This document shows, piece by piece, positions 5,873 through 62,289 of a DNA stretch of 64,000 nucleotides. Within the stretch, counting starts at the first letter, position 1, and each line of letters starts with the position of its first letter. The position numbers and the translations under genes are program-made. The DNA is from Sulfurospirillum halorespirans DSM 13726 (GTDB taxonomy: Bacteria > Campylobacterota > Campylobacteria > Campylobacterales > Sulfurospirillaceae), in contig NZ_CP017111.1 of assembly GCF_001723605.1 (NCBI RefSeq), positions 2,356,001 to 2,420,000 on the forward strand, given 5' to 3'. Below the pieces are notes generated by a model, which saw nothing but the letters and a program-made list of their open reading frames with translations, had not been told where the DNA came from and searched no databases.

Positions 5873-6015
5873 TTTAACCTCCTATTTCTAAGAGAGACTC
5901 TTAGAGTAAGATTCAATTATACCATATTGGTTTTTTTGCTATTCTGAAGCGTTCTGAAACGATTACATGTAAAGGTTTGTGCAAGAAAAGATCAATCTTT
6001 TTGTTACCAAGTTGA

Positions 6016-15714: not shown

Positions 15715-17115
15715 TCATAATACAACATTGTTTGAAGGTAATTTAAATGAAAAATCAGATCCAACGCCTAAGCTACTTTGTATTTCAAGCATGGAGTTGT
15801 GCATCTTGAGAATGTAATTGACCAATGCAAGCCCAAGTCCCATCGAATTGTCCCACGAATGCGAGTTGGAGCGGTAGAACTTTTGGGTCACTTTTTCGAT
15901 CTCTTCTTCCTTAATGCCAACGCCATTATCTTTTACATGTAAAGATCCCTCTGTGAGGTAAATCTCGATGGTATCGTCGGAGTATTTGAGTGCGTTGTCG
16001 ATGAGATTGGAGATGACGATTTCGATCATCGTGCGATCTGCTGTAATGGGAAACGTCTCAGGAAGGGTGCAGACAATGGGACGATTGTGGTGTTTTTCCC
16101 TAAAGCTTTGCGCGATGTCTTGCGTCATTTTGACGACATCAAATGTGCTGTTTTGTGTGTTGAAGTCGCCATTTTCAAACTTGGTTGTAAGCGTTAGCCG
16201 GTCGATCATTCCAGAGATTTTTTGTCCATTTTGAACGATTTTACCTAAAAAGCGCTCCCTAATTTGTGGGTTTGCAAGTGGATCATCCAAAAGTGTTTGC
16301 GCATACCCCATAATGGACGCAATAGGGTTTTTAAACTCATGGCTAATAGCAGAGATGACATCGCTTCTTTGTTGGCTTATTAGCTTGATTTTGGCAGTGT
16401 ATTTACGTTTTTGCTTGGCACGTTTTTCCAATTTCGCGGCTAGTTTTTTGAGGTAATTGGCAATCTCAAAAAACTCCAAACAGAAGTGAGACGAGAGGCT
16501 GATTTTGTAGTCTTTGTCGGCAATTTGTTGGAGGTTTTCGATGATTTTATCGATTTCGTGACGCACTTTTTGACTGAAAATATACGCGCCATACAGTCCC
16601 GCTAAGATGTTGAGACCGAAGATAATGGTCAGTTTGAGCCACAAGTCATAAAAGGTGTGCATAATGGTGTCAATGTTCGTGGCAAGGCGTAAAAAAAGAA
16701 TACGATCGTCTAGTTTAACACGGTGCGCCACATACAAAAAGTTACTGTGCACCGAATCAGAAAAGCGCACTGCATGGGCAAATTCCACCTTTTGGGCTTT
16801 GATGATCTCTTCACGGTGTGAGTGGTTGTCCATCGTTTCATTGTCTTTGTCGCTATCGACAAGGACGACACCTGCTTCATTAATAAGGGTAAAACGAATG
16901 TTCGAACTCTCTTTGATCATCTTTGCAAAAGCTTCAAGATCTTCGATGTTTGGAAGTTGGTGTTTGATGATCTTGATGTGTGATTCAAGCTCTATTTGGT
17001 AGCGCTCTATGTTGTCGCTTTTGATCGTAAAATAACTGACCAAGCCCGAAAGACACAAGGTGCCAAGAAAAAGAGTGAGAAGGGCTCTGGTAACATGTTG
17101 ATGAAGCATTAGCAT
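15715..17115 (-). CDS. phoR: Phosphate-regulon type sensor histidine kinase
   Basis: 466 residues. A TM helix at ~10-30, a periplasmic sensor of ~130 residues and TM2 near 165-185 precede the kinase core: SAISHEFKNPIASIMGYAQTLL (H-box), NLIDNALKYS (N), DNGVGI (G1) and GLGLALV (G2). It overlaps the upstream response-regulator gene by 7 bases; GTG/ATG alternatives are close. With phoB and phoU upstream and Pho boxes around, it is the best candidate for the phosphate-sensing kinase, equivalent to Campylobacter PhosS. Unlike E. coli PhoR it has a substantial periplasmic domain. Confidence 0.8.
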   Translation of the reverse strand: MLMLHQHVTRALLTLFLGTLCLSGLVSYFTIKSDNIERYQIELESHIKIIKHQLPNIEDLEAFAKMIKESSNIRFTLINEAGVVLVDSDKDNETMDNHSHREEIIKAQKVEFAHAVRFSDSVHSNFLYVAHRVKLDDRILFLRLATNIDTIMHTFYDLWLKLTIIFGLNILAGLYGAYIFSQKVRHEIDKIIENLQQIADKDYKISLSSHFCLEFFEIANYLKKLAAKLEKRAKQKRKYTAKIKLISQQRSDVISAISHEFKNPIASIMGYAQTLLDDPLANPQIRERFLGKIVQNGQKISGMIDRLTLTTKFENGDFNTQNSTFDVVKMTQDIAQSFREKHHNRPIVCTLPETFPITADRTMIEIVISNLIDNALKYSDDTIEIYLTEGSLHVKDNGVGIKEEEIEKVTQKFYRSNSHSWDNSMGLGLALVNYILKMHNSMLEIQSSLGVGSDFSFKLPSNNVVL

Positions 17116-17780
17116 AAGATATATCCTACTCCCCAGATGGATTTGATGTACTCTTTTTCTTTGGTTGGGTCTATCTTTTGTTTGAGACGATTAATAGCGA
17201 CATTAACCGTTTTATCTTGAAAAAATTCATCGTTTTTCCAGACATGTTCGAGCAAAAATTCGCGGCTTAAAACGGCGTTTTTATTTTCTATCATCGTTTT
17301 GAGCAGATCAAACTCCAGCTTTGTAAGCTCCACATCTTTGTCATTGACAGACAAGCGGTGTGCTTCAAGGTCTAAGATGAGATCGCGATACGAGAGCGTG
17401 TTTTTGCTCTCAGGCGCGGTGCGTGCTAAGATAGCTTTGATGCGAAGCAACAGCTCTTTCATATTGTAAGGCTTTGTGACGTAGTCATCGCACCCTCTTA
17501 AAAAGCCCTCTTCAATGTGGGTGTCACTGTTTTTTGCAGTCACAAAAATGACCGCTTGAGAGAACCCTTTTTTACGCAAGTTCTCTACAAATTCACTTCC
17601 TTCAACCCCAGGGAGATTGCGATCCACAATTAAAAGATCGATGGGCTCTTCTTGCAGACATTTTTCAACATTTCTACTGCTTAAAAAGCCCAGTGTTTCG
17701 TAACCCTCTTTTTGAAGATGATACTCTAAGAGTTCAAGTAAATCTTCTTCATCTTCAATAATCAAAATAGTCTGTTTCAT
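17109..17780 (-). CDS. phoB: OmpR/PhoB-family response regulator
   Basis: 223 residues. The receiver has acidic residues EDEED at the N-terminus, phospho-acceptor Asp in LIVDRNLPG and Lys in VTKPYN. A winged-helix DNA-binding domain occupies 125-223 (LTKLEFDLLKTMIENKNAVLSREFLLEHVW...SIWGVGYIL). PhoB-type regulators bind direct 7-bp repeats spaced 4 bp, exactly the element found before phoU, olsF and pstS. It sits between phoU and phoR in one transcription unit. Confidence 0.85.
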   Translation of the reverse strand: MKQTILIIEDEEDLLELLEYHLQKEGYETLGFLSSRNVEKCLQEEPIDLLIVDRNLPGVEGSEFVENLRKKGFSQAVIFVTAKNSDTHIEEGFLRGCDDYVTKPYNMKELLLRIKAILARTAPESKNTLSYRDLILDLEAHRLSVNDKDVELTKLEFDLLKTMIENKNAVLSREFLLEHVWKNDEFFQDKTVNVAINRLKQKIDPTKEKEYIKSIWGVGYILC

Positions 17781-17830: not shown

Positions 17831-18499
17831 TTAATACGTCTTCATCTCTCCACCCACACGTGCGAAGATCATTAATTGTACAATATTTACACTGCGATCT
17901 GCCATACGTTCTAACTTTCGCATGGTGCTAAGAATTTGGATAAAATCAGCCGATTGGTCGATCATTTTGGCGATGTCACTGAGGATGTTTTTCTCCAAAA
18001 TCGAGTAAAGATCATCGCTTTTGCTCTCTTCAACTTTAACCCTTCGGTAGATGTCTTCCAGTGTTTCAGGGTCAGCGATTTCGATCGTGCTGATGGCTAA
18101 TGTCACTGCTTTGATGGATGTTTTACATAAATGTATTGAGTATTCATGCAACGAAGCAAATGGTAAATCACTTTGGAGATGTTGCGCCATGCGTTTACTA
18201 AACCCACGAATATTTTCAGCAATCTTGACCAGTTCATTGGTGATTTTAAGATACGCAACCATCTTACGTAAATCTTTTGCTTCCGGTCCAAAAAGGGCGA
18301 GTGCGACAACGATTTCATTATCAATAGCATTAGCTCTGTTTTCAATATTTTTAAGAAGGGTTTTTGCCGAGTCAAAACGAGATATATCTAAACTTTCCAT
18401 ACCGCAAAGAGCTTTTTCACCTGCCATAGAGATTTCAGAACCTAAATCAATCAACATTCGCTTGATCTCAATAAGTCTCTCTTCATATTTTTGAAGCAT
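17831..18499 (-). CDS. phoU: PhoU phosphate-signalling protein
   Basis: 222 residues, two PhoU three-helix repeats. ALFGPEAKDLRKMVAYLKITNELVKIAENIRGFSKR is the first-domain signature and IQILSTMRKLERMADRSVNIVQLMIF the second. PhoU links the Pst transporter to the kinase and restrains the Pho response when phosphate is plentiful. It is first in a phoU-phoB-phoR unit and is preceded by a Pho box, giving autoregulation. In many bacteria phoU ends the pst operon; here it is 8 kb from pst. Confidence 0.93.
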   Translation of the reverse strand: MLQKYEERLIEIKRMLIDLGSEISMAGEKALCGMESLDISRFDSAKTLLKNIENRANAIDNEIVVALALFGPEAKDLRKMVAYLKITNELVKIAENIRGFSKRMAQHLQSDLPFASLHEYSIHLCKTSIKAVTLAISTIEIADPETLEDIYRRVKVEESKSDDLYSILEKNILSDIAKMIDQSADFIQILSTMRKLERMADRSVNIVQLMIFARVGGEMKTY

Positions 18500-18526: not shown

Positions 18527-18558
18527 ATTGTAGTTTGAAATCATTACAATATGGTAAC
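18527..18558 (-). promoter_or_regulatory. Pho box and -10 of phoU-phoB-phoR
   Basis: On the minus strand GTTACCA-TATT-GTAATGA (18558 to 18541) is a 7-bp direct repeat with a 4-bp gap. Exactly 8 bp later comes TACAAT (18532-18527). The same geometry and the same TACAATGA are present before pstS. As in E. coli Pho promoters the Pho box takes the place of the -35. Confidence 0.85.
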
Positions 18559-18575: not shown

Positions 18576-18607
18576 GTTACCACATCGTAATCAGCTCACC
18601 ATATAAT
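18576..18607 (+). promoter_or_regulatory. Pho box and -10 of the olsF-like gene
   Basis: GTTACCA-CATC-GTAATCA (18576-18593), then 8 bp, then a perfect TATAAT (18602-18607). It faces the acyltransferase gene, whose ATG lies 32 bases downstream after AAAGGAG. It is back to back with the phoU Pho box, with 17 bp between the two. Confidence 0.85.
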
Positions 18608-18639: not shown

Positions 18640-20355
18640 ATGGTAGATGTAGAAAAAACGTTAAGCCTCAAGTACCCTAGCATTGTCTATTATCCGAGTA
18701 TTGTGAGAAATTTCGTTGTTTATCTCCTGAAAAAGCTACTTCATCAAGATGAGATTAACGATTTTTTAATGCACGGAGAGGCGTATCGTGGGTTTGATTT
18801 TGTCGAAGCGGTGCTGGAGTATTTCAACTTTGGCTACACCATCTCTAATAAAGATAAAACCAATATCCCTTCCTCTGGGCGCATTATCATCATCGCAAAC
18901 CACCCATTAGGCGCACTGGACGCTTTGGCACTTATCTCGCTTATTAAAGAGATACGAAGTGATGTGAAAGTACTGGCAAATGACGTGTTGATGCAGATTG
19001 AACCGCTCAGTGGACTGCTCATTCCCATCGATAATCTTACAGGTGCAACGGCGAAAGAGTCGATCAAAAAAGTTTACGATGCGCTTGAGCGTGATGAAGC
19101 GCTTATTGTCTTTCCCTCAGGTGAAGTCTCACGGGCTCAGCCAACAGGCATTAAAGATACGAAATGGAAAAAAGGCTTTTTAAAGTTTGCGCAAAAGACC
19201 AATTCACCTCTTTTACCTGTGTTCATTGATGCCAAAAATTCGCCACTTTTTTACACACTTTCGATGATCAACAAAAAAATCTCGACCTTTTTACTCGCCA
19301 GTGAGATGTTTAAAAAACGCTCCAAAGTGATTAACTTTAAAATTGGCGAGATGATCACCTATAAAACGCTTCAAAGCTCAGGCTTTAGCGACACAACCTT
19401 GATTACGCTTTTGAAAAAACATCTTTATAAGATCAGTAAAGGTAAAAAGGGAATTTTTGCAACGCAAAGAGCGATTGCGCATCCTGAAGAGCGCAAAGCC
19501 ATACGCGCAGAGCTTAAAAAATCCACCCTTTTAGGTCAAACGAGTGATGGCAAGAAAATCTATCTGTATGAGTATGAAGCAGGTTCCATTTTGATGAAAG
19601 AGATAGGACGCTTGCGAGAGTTTACATTTCGTAAAGTGGAAGAGGGAACGGGTGGAAAACGCGATGTAGACGCATTTGATAAGCACTACAAACATATCGT
19701 GCTGTGGGACGATGATGAGCTTGAAGTCGTGGGAGCGTACCGCATTGGCGAAGCCAATTATATCAGTGAGTATTTTGGAATGGAAGGGTTTTATTCACAC
19801 AGCCTTTTTGAATTTGCCCCCGAGTTTGAGCCTTATTTACACAACTCCATTGAGCTAGGACGAAGTTTTGTTCAGCCACGCTATTGGGGCACACGTGCCC
19901 TTGATTATCTCTGGCAAGGCATTGGGGCGTACTTGTTTAAAAATCCGCATATTCGTTACATGTACGGTCCTGTGAGTCTGAGCGATGTTTATCCCAAAAT
20001 CGCCAAAAATCTCATCATCACCTTCTATTCCCTCTATTTTGGTTCAGCACAATCCTTGGTTCTCGCACGAAACTCTTTTTTTATGAGTAAATTAGAGAAA
20101 GAAGAAGCACTCTCTTTTTTCAAAGGCGATGATTATAAAGAGGATTTTGCCGTTTTAAAAGAGCAACTTTCTCACATGGATCTTAGCGTGCCAACACTGT
20201 ATAAACAGTACACCGAACTCTGCGAAGAGGGTGGCATCTCATTTTTAGATTTTAACATCGACAAAGAGTTTGCCAACTGTGTGGATAGCTTTATTTTAGT
20301 GGATATCACCAAAGTCAAAGAAGCGAAAAAGACGCGCTATATCAAAGGGGCGTAA
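18640..20355 (+). CDS. olsF: Bifunctional ornithine-lipid acyltransferase (OlsF-like: PlsC + OlsB-type GNAT)
   Basis: 571 residues with two acyltransferase halves. Residues ~75-260 form a PlsC-type domain with NHPLGALD (87-94, catalytic His and Asp) and FPSGEVSR (158-165). Residues ~300-520 resemble OlsB-type N-acyltransferases: VVGAYRIGEANYISEYFG, ELGRSFVQPRYW, LWQGIGAYL and MYGPVSLSDVYP. In Serratia and Flavobacterium such fusions (OlsF) make ornithine lipid: the C-terminal half acylates ornithine, the N-terminal half adds the second chain. The Pho box in front means it should be induced when phosphate is scarce, when phosphorus-free lipid replaces phospholipid. Activity is inferred from family resemblance. 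Confidence 0.82.
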   Translation: MVDVEKTLSLKYPSIVYYPSIVRNFVVYLLKKLLHQDEINDFLMHGEAYRGFDFVEAVLEYFNFGYTISNKDKTNIPSSGRIIIIANHPLGALDALALISLIKEIRSDVKVLANDVLMQIEPLSGLLIPIDNLTGATAKESIKKVYDALERDEALIVFPSGEVSRAQPTGIKDTKWKKGFLKFAQKTNSPLLPVFIDAKNSPLFYTLSMINKKISTFLLASEMFKKRSKVINFKIGEMITYKTLQSSGFSDTTLITLLKKHLYKISKGKKGIFATQRAIAHPEERKAIRAELKKSTLLGQTSDGKKIYLYEYEAGSILMKEIGRLREFTFRKVEEGTGGKRDVDAFDKHYKHIVLWDDDELEVVGAYRIGEANYISEYFGMEGFYSHSLFEFAPEFEPYLHNSIELGRSFVQPRYWGTRALDYLWQGIGAYLFKNPHIRYMYGPVSLSDVYPKIAKNLIITFYSLYFGSAQSLVLARNSFFMSKLEKEEALSFFKGDDYKEDFAVLKEQLSHMDLSVPTLYKQYTELCEEGGISFLDFNIDKEFANCVDSFILVDITKVKEAKKTRYIKGA

Positions 20356-24315: not shown

Positions 24316-25917
24316 TTAGACTGTTTTAAAGGCTGCAAGCGCAAGGCTTAGGGTATTGGAGAGTTTTGAAAGATGCTCTGCCGCACTCGCGATCTCTTCG
24401 ACACTTCTGGCATTGGTCGCAGAAATGTGATGAATCGCATCAATGCGACCTAACATTTCAGAAGCTTGAGCGCTTCCCTCTTTGGCATCTTTGGCGCTGT
24501 TTTGTGCCAATGTTTTGGCTTCATTCATCGTGGAGACGGTTTTGAGCATTATTTTTTGCGTCTCTTCGGCTCGTTGCCCCAGTGCTTGAATCTCTTGCGC
24601 ATTGCTTTTCATGAGCTCGGATGAGGTAGCAACCGATTGGGTGATGACAGCGACGGTTGCATTGCTCTCTACCAAACTTTTTTGGGTGCGTTCTGCCAAT
24701 TTTCGTACTTCATCGGCAACGACGGCAAATCCACGACCGTGTTCGCCTGCGCGTGCTGCTTCAATGGCGGCATTGAGGGCTAGCAAATTGGTCTGTTCTG
24801 CAATGTCTGCAATGACGGAGAGAACTTGCTGGACTTGGGTCACTTCTTGATCAAGATGCTCAATGCGACTTGAAAGATCGGTTTGGTTGACCACAATGGT
24901 TTGCAGATCGTTGGAGACACTAAGAACCTCTTGAGAAGCGTTGCTGAGCTCATCGGACACATTTTGAATGACCGACTCAGAACGGTTTGAACTCTCTTCA
25001 CTCGTATGCAAGATACTCGCCACTTTTTTCGTAGAATCCAGTGCATGATCGACCTCTTTAGCGGCCTCTTCGGTTCGTTTTCCGATTTGAAGTGAGGTGG
25101 ATGAGAGCTCTTCGGCAACTGCAGCATTTTCTAACGCCGTACGTTTTGCCCCGTCAATGGCACTGCACAGTTTCGTAAGCAGGGCGTTAACCGTCGCCAT
25201 CATTGAGGCAATTTCATCCTGACCTTTCGTGTCAATGCTATGGCTTAAATCTTGGCTATTGCCGATGTAGTCGCACTCTTTGGACGCAGTTTGTATGGAG
25301 TTTTTGATCTGACCTGAGGTGTACCAAAAGATAAAACTTGACACAACTAAGACCAACAACGCCATAATAACACCAACTATATTGGCTTGATCTAAGACCT
25401 GATCTTCATACGCTTCGATGGATTTTGTCAGCTTTTTAGAAGAATCTAAGAGGGTAATAAAGCTCGTACGCCCTTCATTGGTGACCACTGTAAATCGCTT
25501 GCCCTCGGGAGTGTTTAGAAACTCAGGTGAATTAATCGCTTCTTTGTATTTATCGACTAAAACAAAGCGCTCATCACTGGAGAGTTTCACCTCGGCAGCT
25601 ACTTTTTTAATCTGCTCAAGGAGCGCACTATTTTCCTTATTTAACAGTGTTGGTTCAAGTTCTTGCGCGGCTTTGAGAAGATTATCATAGGCTTTATAGT
25701 ACGCCTCTGTCATTTTAGGATTGAAAGTGATTTGGTGCCCTCTTGCTTGGACGAGCAGTTCATTCGTGTACGTAGCAATGGCACCTGCATATTGCACTTT
25801 TTCGACGGCCATTTGAGCTTTGGTCGTATTTGAAACAAGTAAATAGCCTAGTCCTGACGTCCCTATAACAATAACAACAAAGAGAAACAAGAGTTTAGCA
25901 CGGATAGATTGAAGCAT
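24316..25917 (-). CDS. Methyl-accepting chemotaxis protein, paralogue of the 21764 MCP
   Basis: 533 residues with the same layout as its neighbour: [30 protein letters not shown] at the start, a helical periplasmic domain, TM2 near 190, then a signalling domain with [35 protein letters not shown]. The start at 25917 has AGAAGGA before it; an ATG 18 bases upstream overlaps that RBS and is rejected. The sensor domains diverge more than the signalling halves, so the pair likely arose by duplication followed by change of ligand. Confidence 0.93.
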
Positions 25918-26015
25918 AAAAATTCCTTCTAGCAAGTTAGTTTAGAATTATAACGGGCTATTCCCAAAAAAATGATAATAACGAAGCATTTTAATCCTCT
26001 ATTTAGAAACAATTC

Positions 26016-26047
26016 GTAACCAAGTTGTAATCAAATTCCCTTACAAT
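26016..26047 (+). promoter_or_regulatory. Pho box and -10 of pstSCAB
   Basis: GTAACCA-AGTT-GTAATCA (26016-26033) is an almost perfect 7-bp direct repeat with a 4-bp gap. After 8 bp comes TACAAT (26042-26047). The pstS ATG is 34 bases downstream. Confidence 0.88.
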
Positions 26048-26080: not shown

Positions 26081-27121
26081 ATGACTATCAAAACATGTGC
26101 AATTGCACTTTTAAGTGTTGCTGCTTTGAGTACAACGGCAAGTGCAAGAGATCAGATTAAAATTGTTGGATCATCAACCGTGTATCCTTTTACCAGCTAT
26201 GTCGCTGAAGAGTTTAAAGCAACAACAGGCAATGCGACACCTGTCGTTGAATCAACAGGAACCGGTGGTGGTATGAAGATTTTTTGTTCAGGCGATGGTC
26301 TTGATACACCTGATTTTACCAATGCTTCACGTCCTATGAAATCGGCTGAATACAAAGCATGTTTAGAAAATGGCGTCACAGATATTACCGGTATGATGGT
26401 AGGATTTGACGGTATTGCGTTTGCTCAATCTAAAACGAATGGCAAAATCAACTTTACACGTGAGCAAATGTTCTTAGCACTTGCTGAAGAAGTTCCAAGT
26501 AAAGATGGCAAGTCACTCATTAAAAACCCATACAAAACATGGAATGAGATCGATGCGGCTCTTCCAAATAGAAAAATCACCGTTTACGGTCCTCCAACCA
26601 CATCAGGTACACGTGACTCTTTTGATGAGATGGTTATGGAGCACAGTTCAGCAAAATTTGAAGCGTATGGCGACAAAAAAGGCAAATACAAAGCGGTACG
26701 TCAAGACGGTGTGTTTGTTCCAGCAGGTGAAAATGACAACCTAATCGTTCAAAAACTCACCAAAGACACTGCTGCATTTGGTATCTTTGGTTACAGCTTC
26801 CTTGAAGAGAATGGCGATAAAATCAATGGCGCATCTGTGGATAGCGTTGAACCAGCATTTGATACGATTTCATCTGCAAAATACCCAATCTCAAGAAGCC
26901 TTTATATCTACGCTAAAAACTCACACCGTTCTCAAGTTAAAGGGATGGATGAATTCTTGAAATTGTATGTTGATGCAAAAATGATCGGTACAAAAGGTGT
27001 ACTTAAAACAATCGGTTTGGTTCCAATGACCGAGGGAGATCTTAAAAAAGTACAAGCAGCTGTTTTAGCTAAGACTAAACTCACTGAAGAGATGGTTAAG
27101 AAAAATACCATTCTTCCATAA
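26081..27121 (+). CDS. pstS: Phosphate ABC transporter, periplasmic binding protein PstS
   Basis: 346 residues. A signal peptide ends near SASA/RDQIK (residues 1-23). KIVGSSTVYPFTSYVAEEF and STGTGGGMKIFCSG are the phosphate-contact regions; PTTSGTRDSFDEMVM is the third. It captures phosphate in the periplasm and delivers it to PstCA. First gene of pstSCAB behind a Pho box. A hairpin after the gene probably lowers read-through so that PstS exceeds the membrane parts. Confidence 0.93.
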   Translation: MTIKTCAIALLSVAALSTTASARDQIKIVGSSTVYPFTSYVAEEFKATTGNATPVVESTGTGGGMKIFCSGDGLDTPDFTNASRPMKSAEYKACLENGVTDITGMMVGFDGIAFAQSKTNGKINFTREQMFLALAEEVPSKDGKSLIKNPYKTWNEIDAALPNRKITVYGPPTTSGTRDSFDEMVMEHSSAKFEAYGDKKGKYKAVRQDGVFVPAGENDNLIVQKLTKDTAAFGIFGYSFLEENGDKINGASVDSVEPAFDTISSAKYPISRSLYIYAKNSHRSQVKGMDEFLKLYVDAKMIGTKGVLKTIGLVPMTEGDLKKVQAAVLAKTKLTEEMVKKNTILP

Positions 27122-27140
27122 GTTTACATGTAAGACCGAT

Positions 27141-27184: not shown

Positions 27185-28441
27185 GTGAGTACGCAAACAC
27201 TCTATCTTATCTTTTTTGGTGGACTTGTTCCACTAATGTTTCTAGGCTATGTTTTAGGCCGACAAAAAGCCATCACGATTCGTTCACAAGGTATTAAAAT
27301 GCATTCTCAACCTGACCAATACGGTTGGTTTGGAGCTCTTTATACAGGACTTCCGATCATTACGATTGGGGTTTGTGGAGTATTTTTATATCTTTTTGGC
27401 GTTCACGCCATTCCCCCAACGATGCTTTTAGCAGCAGCCCTTGGTGTGGGAGCACTCACCCTTGGACTCTTGATTAAAAATATCCAAGGTACGACCAAAG
27501 CGCGTGACTTGGTAGAAGATTTGATTAAGGGAATGCTCTTCACCGCTTCATTGGTTTCGGTGCTAACAACCTTTGGTATCTTGCTTTCTATCATCTTTGA
27601 AGCGCTTCATTTCTTCCAAATGCAAAGTTTCTTTCACTTCATCTTTGGCTTAGAGTGGTCGCCTGATACCGCCTTTTTAGAAGGTGCTGGTAGAGCAGAT
27701 GCGAACGCGGCGGAAGCTAAATTTGGCGCCGTGCCTATTTTTGCAGGAACTTTTTACATCACCGCTATTGCGATGGTGGTTGCCATTCCGATGGGACTGC
27801 TGTCTGCGATTTTTATGTCTGAGTATGCCAGTTCAAGTGTTAGATCTCAAGTGAAGCCTTTTTTAGAGATTTTAGCGGGTATCCCAACCGTTGTGTATGG
27901 ATTCTTTGCTGCCCTTACGGTCGCTCCGCTTGTGGTTAAATTTTTTGCGGTCTTTGGCATCGAAGCACAGTACCAAAACGCACTCTCTTCAGGTATTATC
28001 ATGGGGATTATGATTATCCCGTTTATCTCTTCCCTCTCCGATGATGTTATCAGCTCTGTACCTCAAAATATGCGCAATGGTGCGTATGCACTTGGTATGA
28101 ACAAAGCAGAGACGATTCGTTTTGTGGTTCTCCCTTCTGCGATGCCAGGTATCATCGCTTCGATCCTCCTTGGTGTCTCACGAGCCCTTGGAGAGACCAT
28201 GATCGTTGTTATGGCAGCAGGTTTAAGACCAAACTTAACGTGGAATCCACTGGAAGATATGACCACCGTCACGGTTAAAATCGTTGAATCGCTTACGGGT
28301 GATCAAGAGTTTAACAACCCACTCACCCTCTCAGCCTTTGCGCTGGGTTTGGTGCTTTTTGTGGTGACGTTGGTGATTAACATTATCTCGGTCAGTACCA
28401 TTCGTAAGTTCCATAGAAAATACAAAGTTTCAACGCTTTAA
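27185..28441 (+). CDS. pstC: Phosphate ABC transporter permease PstC
   Basis: 418 residues, GTG start after AAAGGA. Six or more membrane helices; the ABC permease loop SSVPQNMRNGAYALGMNKAETIRFVVLPSAMPGI is near residue 290-325 and the core begins at VPIFAGTFYITAIAMVVAIPMGLL. An N-terminal region of ~150 residues with three helices extends beyond the E. coli protein. It forms the channel with PstA. Confidence 0.92.
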   Translation: MSTQTLYLIFFGGLVPLMFLGYVLGRQKAITIRSQGIKMHSQPDQYGWFGALYTGLPIITIGVCGVFLYLFGVHAIPPTMLLAAALGVGALTLGLLIKNIQGTTKARDLVEDLIKGMLFTASLVSVLTTFGILLSIIFEALHFFQMQSFFHFIFGLEWSPDTAFLEGAGRADANAAEAKFGAVPIFAGTFYITAIAMVVAIPMGLLSAIFMSEYASSSVRSQVKPFLEILAGIPTVVYGFFAALTVAPLVVKFFAVFGIEAQYQNALSSGIIMGIMIIPFISSLSDDVISSVPQNMRNGAYALGMNKAETIRFVVLPSAMPGIIASILLGVSRALGETMIVVMAAGLRPNLTWNPLEDMTTVTVKIVESLTGDQEFNNPLTLSAFALGLVLFVVTLVINIISVSTIRKFHRKYKVSTL

Positions 28442-28450
28442 AGGGCAGAT

Positions 28451-29623
28451 ATGAAAGAGCAAAACGACAACTATTTTTACATACCACAGATCAAAAGACG
28501 TAACCAAAAAGCAGCTCTTTTTAAAGGGGCTACGATTATGGCGATTGTCTTCTCTGTCTCTTTTTTGATCTTCTTTTTGGTGGATTTAGGAAGATCCGGC
28601 TATCCCGCTTTTTTTCAAACCTATGTCAAAATGGAAGTCACCATCAATGAAGAGGTTTTGGAAAATCCTTATGTTGCGGTTAAAGGTAAAAACCTTAAAA
28701 TTATCAGTCGCGCATGGCTAAGAGACATTCCCAATCAAGTCAAACAAAATCCAACATGGATGAATACGACACAAGAACACTGGGTACTCGCCAACTCTGA
28801 GGTTGACCAATATGTCAAAGGCAAAGAGTCACGAACCAAGCCAAATGAACGTGCCTATGTGGATGAACTCAAAGAAAAAGGGCTGGTTGAACTGAAGTTT
28901 AACACCATTTTTCTCACCACCGGCGATTCTAAAATTCCTGAAAATTCGGGCATCTACTCTTCCATCATTGGAACGGTGATGACCATTATCGTTACGATGC
29001 TGATCGCATTTCCGATCGGTGTTATGACAGCCATTTATCTCGAAGAGTTTGCTCCTGATAATCGTTGGACGCAGATCATTGAGGTGAATATCAACAACCT
29101 TGCCGCGATTCCTTCCATTTTGTTTGGTCTTTTAGGCTTGGCAATTTTTATCAACTTCTTTGGGGTTCCTAGGAGTTCACCGTTGGTAGGCGGTATGACC
29201 TTGTCACTTATGTGTCTGCCTGTTATCATTGTAAGCTCTAAAGCATCCCTCAAATCGGTTCCTGCAAGCATACGCCAAGCGGGTTTTGGTCTGGGACTGA
29301 CCAAGTGGCAGATCGTGCGTGATCATGTTTTACCTTTGGCAATGCCAGGCATTATGACAGGTTCCATCATCTCCATTGCACATGCTTTGGGTGAGACAGC
29401 GCCTTTGATTATTGTCGGTATGATCGCGTTTGTGCCTGATGCGGCGACGAATTTTACCGACGCTGCAACTGTGCTTCCTGCACAAATCTTTACATGGGCA
29501 GGTATGCCTGAAAAAGCCTACTTGGAGCGTACTGCTGCAGGTATTATCGTTCTTTTAGCGGTACTTCTTTCCATGAATGCCGGCGCCGTGTACCTTAGAA
29601 AAAAATTTGAAAGAAAGTGGTAA
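28451..29623 (+). CDS. pstA: Phosphate ABC transporter permease PstA
   Basis: 390 residues. After TM1 there is a long periplasmic segment (~120 residues). The permease core then starts at [35 protein letters not shown], with the EAA loop [33 protein letters not shown]. It pairs with PstC. The stop TAA overlaps the pstB ATG (TAATG). Confidence 0.92.
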
Positions 29624-30447
29624 TGACAATGGAAAATGGTTTTATTCACACAACCTTTAACGATCGTGATGAGACTCCTGAGATTGCAGAGAGTATCAAA
29701 ATAGAGGTCAAAAACCTTGATCTTTTTTACGGCGATAAACAGGCTCTCAATAGCATCAATATGGATGTTTATACGAAAAAAATCACAGCACTCATAGGAC
29801 CGAGTGGTTGCGGAAAGTCTACTTTTTTACGTTGCATCAACCGCATGAACGATCTCGTTCCAAACTGTAGAGTAGAGGGTTTCGTTGGCATTGATGGACA
29901 CGATGTATACGATAAAGACATCGACGTCGTTGCAGTTCGAAAACGCGTTGGTATGGTGTTTCAACAACCTAATCCTTTCCCAAAAAGCATCTATGAAAAC
30001 ATCGCGTATGCTCCTTTGATGCACGACATCGTGAAAAAAGGTAAAGAGTGTGACGAGTTGGTCGAGCGAGCACTCAAAGGTGCCAATCTTTGGGAAGAGG
30101 TTAAAGATAAACTCAAAGACCCAGGCACGGCACTCTCAGGCGGACAGCAACAACGTTTGTGTATCGCGCGTGCTATTGCGGTTGAGCCTGATGTTATTTT
30201 GATGGATGAGCCAACAAGTGCGCTTGATCCAATTTCAACCGAGAAAATTGAGAACTTGATGTTGGACTTGAAGAAAAACTACACCATCGTTATCGTCACA
30301 CACAATATGCAGCAAGCTGCTCGTATCGCAGACTACACCGCATTTTTCCATTTAGGAAATCTCATCGAATACAGCGATGCTAAAACACTCTTCGTTAACC
30401 CAAAAGAGAAGAAAACCGAAGATTACATCACAGGACGTTTTGGTTGA
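29623..30447 (+). CDS. pstB: Phosphate ABC transporter ATPase PstB
   Basis: 274 residues. Walker [11 protein letters not shown]-loop [16 protein letters not shown], signature LSGGQQQR, Walker [14 protein letters not shown] and switch His (VTHNMQQ) are all intact. The start is taken at the ATG overlapping the pstA stop. Last gene of the pst operon; phoU does not follow. Confidence 0.95.
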
Positions 30448-30454
30448 TCTTATC

Positions 30455-30490
30455 TTTTACATGTAAAGCGAAAAAGCTTTACATGTAAAA
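30455..30490 (+). terminator. Terminator-like hairpin built from two iterated palindromes
   Basis: TTTTACATGTAAAGC and GCTTTACATGTAAAA form a perfect 15-bp stem around a GAAAAA loop, 8 bases after the pstB stop. Each arm is itself a 12-bp palindrome. There is no T tract after the stem, so the termination role is inferred. Confidence 0.6.
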
Positions 30491-62113: not shown

Positions 62114-62145
62114 GTAACATATCCGTAATCCCAAGAGGCTATAAT
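62114..62145 (+). promoter_or_regulatory. Candidate Pho box and -10 before the last MCP
   Basis: GTAACAT-ATCC-GTAATCC (62114-62131), 8 bp, then TATAAT (62140-62145). The 7-4-7-8 geometry is the same as at phoU, olsF and pstS, though the first repeat matches GTWACCA at only 5 of 7 positions. A second TATAAT (62213-62218) may give a Pho-independent start closer to the gene. Confidence 0.6.
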
Positions 62146-62289
62146 CCTCCTATTTCAGCAAAAAAATGACTATTATCCTATTAAAGTCTCGTTTTCGTCA
62201 CAAAAGAGACGCTATAATTAAAAATTAATATTGAAAATACACTTTAAGTATTTTACATGTAAACACTCTCTCACACAAAGGAGTTCTTG

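Follow-up and report, generated by a model that had tools for sequence, protein, structure and literature searches.

Does the direct repeat in front of pstS in Sulfurospirillum halorespirans DSM 13726 represent a Pho box, and which genes would such a box control? A sequence-only reading of this DNA had described GTAACCA-AGTT-GTAATCA-AATTCCCT-TACAAT at positions 26016-26047 (+) of the window, that is, of the whole 64-kb stretch analysed, and direct reading confirmed both sequence and position. The two half-sites of the pstSCAB box, 11 bp apart, occupy 26016..26033 (+), and the pstS promoter has its -10 element, TACAAT, at 26042..26047 (+), 33 bp before the start codon. Similar sites were described at two other promoters. 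The site serving phoU-phosR-phosS, GTTACCA TATT GTAATGA TTTCAAAC TACAAT, lies at 18527-18558 (-), 27 bp before the start of phoU, and the olsF-side site, GTTACCA CATC GTAATCA GCTCACCA TATAAT, lies at 18576-18607 (+), 32 bp before the start of olsF. The three boxes, 27-33 bp ahead of the start codons, have the layout of a Pho box: a pair of direct repeats with an 11-bp period that covers the -35 position at a fixed distance from the -10 element and precedes phosphate-acquisition genes (pstSCAB, phoU-phosR-phosS and olsF). The spacing of eight nucleotides (N8) between the second half-site and the -10 does not vary among the three sites and recurs in relatives, in agreement with the placement over the -35 that had been proposed.

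The genome-wide scan for the regulon combined pattern searches with individually retrieved loci. The consensus drawn from the three sites, GTWACCA-N4-GTAATSA-N8-TAYAAT, had exactly three exact matches in the whole 3,029,840-bp genome, all of them inside the 64-kb window, and the reversed pattern used as a control had none in the same genome. It is clear that the three sites are copies of a single direct-repeat motif set at a constant distance from the -10, and that the consensus, which was expected to permit a regulon search, picks out a small regulon with no exact off-targets; the scan for matches away from genes found all three exact matches before phosphate-linked genes. When up to three mismatches were allowed, there were 7 matches in the genome (1 in the control), and in the window alone 5 matches against the 0.03 expected from dinucleotide shuffles. 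The half-sites alone with 2 mismatches gave 40 genome matches and 41 in the control, so this shorter pattern yields no excess by itself.

The gene behind the first box, pstS (26081..27121, +), encodes a phosphate-binding protein with a PF12849 domain, which is 97% identical to PstS of Sulfurospirillum sp. SCADC and scores 160 bits against TIGR02136, below the cut-off of 206.6. It is followed by pstC, pstA and pstB (27185..30447, +), which score above the curated cut-offs of TIGR02138, TIGR00974 and TIGR00972. The second box precedes phoU (17831..18499, -; PF01895), an OmpR/PhoB-family response regulator, the presumed binder of the box (17109..17780, -; PF00072 and PF00486), and a sensor histidine kinase (15715..17115, -; PF00512 and PF02518), whose best NCBIfam profile is PhoR, under its cut-off. 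The names PhosR-like and PhosS-like for the last two are borrowed from Campylobacter as an analogy. With E. coli PhoB the regulator has 31% identity, and it scores 178.6 bits against the PhoB equivalog TIGR02154 (cut-off 296.2); the PhoB and PhoR profiles stand at or near the top of the lists for regulator and kinase, both under the equivalog cut-offs. The product of olsF (18640..20355, +) is a bifunctional ornithine lipid synthase and a full-length member of NF052615, with 836.9 bits (cut-off 620) over residues 1-569 of 571. We also noticed that a methyl-accepting chemotaxis protein gene (24316-25935, -) is divergent from pstS and borders the same intergenic region.

A separate observation concerns the palindrome TTACATGTAA, which is present in 37 copies in the 64 kb against 0.06 expected (for example at 5963-5972, 27124-27133, 30457-30466 and 62253-62262), with only about 4 single-mismatch variants in the window. 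Its density in other Sulfurospirillum loci was 0.67 per kb (L008) or about 0.4 per kb (L009, L011, L079), and it was absent from loci L012 and L076. The pattern suggests a repeated signal under active maintenance, either uptake-sequence-like or a methylation mark; a literature search for the string gave no bacterial explanation among the matches listed.

Since the consensus was derived from the same three sites, conservation provides an independent test. The 110 bp upstream of pstS from 17 relatives were aligned without selection for the motif. Identity was 0.89 both in the half-sites and in the -10 element, fell to 0.66 in the spacers and was 0.52 over the remainder of the aligned region, and the half-sites hold their 11-bp spacing while spacer and flank drift. 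In 41 related genomes, 75 matches with at most two mismatches were found, compared with 4 for the control; the majority precede orthologs of pstS, phoU or olsF at a near-constant distance from the start codon, and the boxes of phoU and olsF are arranged back to back, offset by a nearly invariable 49 bp (48 in genome G010). In G033 we observed that the olsF match (G033:C25:19479-20848, L161) is split in two pieces with internal stops, which may reflect decay of this copy or an error in the sequence. Among 249 genomes of the order, at most one mismatch gave 70 matches and 2 in the control, spread over 18 of 73 genera; the genes behind them include pstS types, a pst permease, a PHO4-family transporter, porin-like proteins and, in G091, olsF. 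A PhosR homolog was found in 29 of the 31 site-bearing genomes searched, including all 24 high-quality ones, and G002, a member of the genus, gave no PhosR hit, no PstS hit and no site. Four PhosR-bearing relatives among the 41 had no site at two mismatches (G025, G028, G030 and G032 among others), and weaker sites turned up in some of these PhosR-bearing genomes.

A matrix built from 46 distinct Sulfurospirillum sites was used to compare the box with that of E. coli. The genus-wide set has a conserved T and pyrimidine ahead of the second GT, and the end of the second half-site is degenerate; the bases before the second GT make the unit an 11-bp repeat, TYGTWAYSANN. The motif of the three-site consensus was real, its wording too narrow for the genus. 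The earlier 7-mer frame was two bases off the CTGTCAT register. In register, TYGTWAY and CTGTCAT have about five of seven bases in common and differ in about two, so that the description of the box as different in bases from that of E. coli was overstated. With the Sulfurospirillum-only matrix, the best-scoring site of the E. coli phoA locus was the Pho box, and TATAGT occupied the place of the -10. The score itself was low (-6.9), and for E. coli phoB and pstS the known box did not come top of its locus; this shows that the layout is shared, not that the strength is equal. The gap between the second core and the -10, read by eye, is 10 bp in E. coli phoA and phoB and in Sulfurospirillum. The boxes of E. 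coli phoA, phoB and pstS likewise consist of an 11-bp direct repeat with a GTnAY core that replaces the -35, whereas Sulfurospirillum has GTWAY for GTCAT, S-A after the core and a less A-rich centre; its phoU is in the sensor operon and not in the pst operon, and olsF is added. We consider the box to be real and of a known kind, a Pho box whose sequence is specific to the lineage and whose core regulon is well defined.

The strict three-site pattern recovered this core and missed candidate members outside it. A gene for a phnD-like phosphonate-binding protein (PF12974) has GTAATCA-tttt-GTAATGC and TAAAGT, 36 bp before the start; of its three orthologs, two have a similar box and one a weak one, and we regard the gene as a candidate. 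Another candidate encodes an EAL/CBS/GGDEF protein. In most Sulfurospirillum species examined (L305-L317), GTAAT-N6-GTAAT and a -10-like hexamer lie 31-33 bp before its start; in the source genome the gene is outside the window (L315, G000:C1:2311971-2313734) and its box is degenerate but conserved in position. The matrix scores are low, about -9 to 4, so the case rests on the constant geometry and position. In addition, relatives of this gene are found close to pstS, olsF or phosR in G032, G033 and G025. Chemoreceptor genes of five sister genomes (L038, L065, L066, L068 and L072) have a box 26-31 bp upstream, which suggests phosphate-controlled chemotaxis. These boxes bear on a question left open for C. 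jejuni, that of PhosR control of the tlp2 chemoreceptor promoter (PMC6250842).

We inspected the four extra genome sites that came in with up to three mismatches, and none was convincing. The site at window position 6003, before a phoH-like gene, is an ordinary promoter and not a Pho box: in phoH orthologs, the would-be second half-site is filled by the TATAAT of an extended -10 promoter that is conserved among them. The site at 62114, about 145 bp upstream of a dCache chemoreceptor gene and with a matrix score of -9.3, was judged a chance match. The matches at 889073 and 2825524 of the source genome (G000) have no suitable gene behind them, and the latter lies opposite a long ORF.

It seems very probable that the repeated signal is the docking site of the phosphate-starvation regulator, and we hold with high confidence that these sites act as Pho boxes in this Sulfurospirillum, controlled by PhosS-PhosR and activating pstSCAB, the sensor operon and olsF. 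When phosphate is scarce, the PhosS-like kinase would phosphorylate the PhosR-like regulator, two effector domains of which would bind the 11-bp direct repeat head to tail. The bound repeat would stand in for the -35 and help sigma-70 RNA polymerase to start at the -10 that follows. Phosphate import would be switched on through pstSCAB, the phoU-phosR-phosS operon would activate itself in a feedback, and olsF would be turned on to form phosphorus-free ornithine lipids that spare phosphate. Binding by PhosR, its phosphorylation, induction at low phosphate and lipid replacement are predictions.

The direct-repeat mode of binding is common to OmpR-family regulators and binding by PhosR is predicted here, so a different member of the family, not the PhosR encoded next to the boxes, might read the repeat and control the same genes. 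We find this quite improbable, as one of the sites is the phosR operon's own promoter, the base-reading residues of PhosR match those of PhoB, and PhosR is encoded in all high-quality site-bearing genomes. That the repeats are ordinary sigma-70 promoter sequence, kept for basal transcription and resembling a Pho box by chance, would fit their promoter position, and the phoH look-alike at 6003 is precisely such a conserved extended -10 promoter. However, the only exact matches are those at three phosphate-linked promoters, the half-sites keep their spacing where spacer and flank do not, and the pattern is found in other families before other phosphate genes, which makes this reading extremely improbable. 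The direction of control cannot be read from the sequence, but the box replaces the -35, with no TTGACA-like hexamer suitably spaced from the -10 of pstS, and this layout is usual for PhoB-activated promoters; repression is highly improbable.

The residues of the regulator also speak for the Pho-box reading. PMC3973317, citing Blanco 2002, states for E. coli PhoB that Arg201 forms a bond with guanine, that thymines are contacted by Thr194 and Val197, and that Arg219 binds to bases between the half-sites. Arg201 and Val197 are kept in all aligned PhosR homologs and Thr194 in nearly all, and we take the PhosR-like regulator to work like PhoB although the profiles do not file it as PhoB. At position 219, in contrast, every Sulfurospirillum and G024 have Trp in place of Arg, as do three genomes of family f6, two of which carry PhosR paralogs; most other genera have Arg. 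Where the regulator has Arg, 25 of 29 sites carry AA or TT at the two central spacer positions; G+C at these two positions is 5%, against 28% in the N8 gaps of these sites (p = 1e-4), and for the three main promoters of Sulfurospirillum the values are 34% and 33%. On the Trp side, AA/TT was found in 0 of 37 sites in the three main promoter families and in 7 of 53 after further sites of Trp lineages were added by hand, so AA/TT is relaxed with Trp, not excluded. The comparison of Arg with Trp ignores ancestry, and its p-value was set aside. Our hypothesis of a link between the wing residue and the central dinucleotide is confounded by shared descent and genome composition. We offer only tentatively, as rather doubtful, the fuller reading that Arg219 changed to Trp in Sulfurospirillaceae, that the Pho box thereby lost its AA/TT centre while the core stayed fixed, and that the regulon also includes the EAL/CBS/GGDEF protein.

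C. jejuni, of the same phylum, has a phosphate-responsive two-component system, PhosS/PhosR, that controls pst genes (Wosten 2006, cited in PMC4415409 and PMC3197622). The predicted Sulfurospirillum system is alike in its phosphate-responsive two-component proteins and pst genes; phoX is added in C. jejuni, olsF and phoU in Sulfurospirillum. The PhosR box of C. jejuni is said to be GTTTCNAAAANGTTTC, likewise an 11-bp repeat. Low-phosphate formation of ornithine lipids by a bifunctional OlsF is described in V. cholerae (PMC12186959); OlsF is bifunctional here as well, but in Sulfurospirillum the gene runs divergently from the phosphate-sensor operon, with a near-consensus box of its own. Our literature search found no paper joining Sulfurospirillum and ornithine lipids, and no description of a Sulfurospirillum Pho box.

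With this box, there is an operator definition that can be put to use for phosphate control in Sulfurospirillum and in related Campylobacterota, and phosphate-controlled synthesis of ornithine lipids is predicted for Sulfurospirillum. The conserved core and variable centre of the box allow a test of whether one wing residue is linked to the operator sequence. If the fuller reading is true, regulator and operator would have changed together while the helix-read core was held, and membership of the EAL/CBS/GGDEF protein, through cyclic-di-GMP, would tie phosphate starvation to lifestyle switching.
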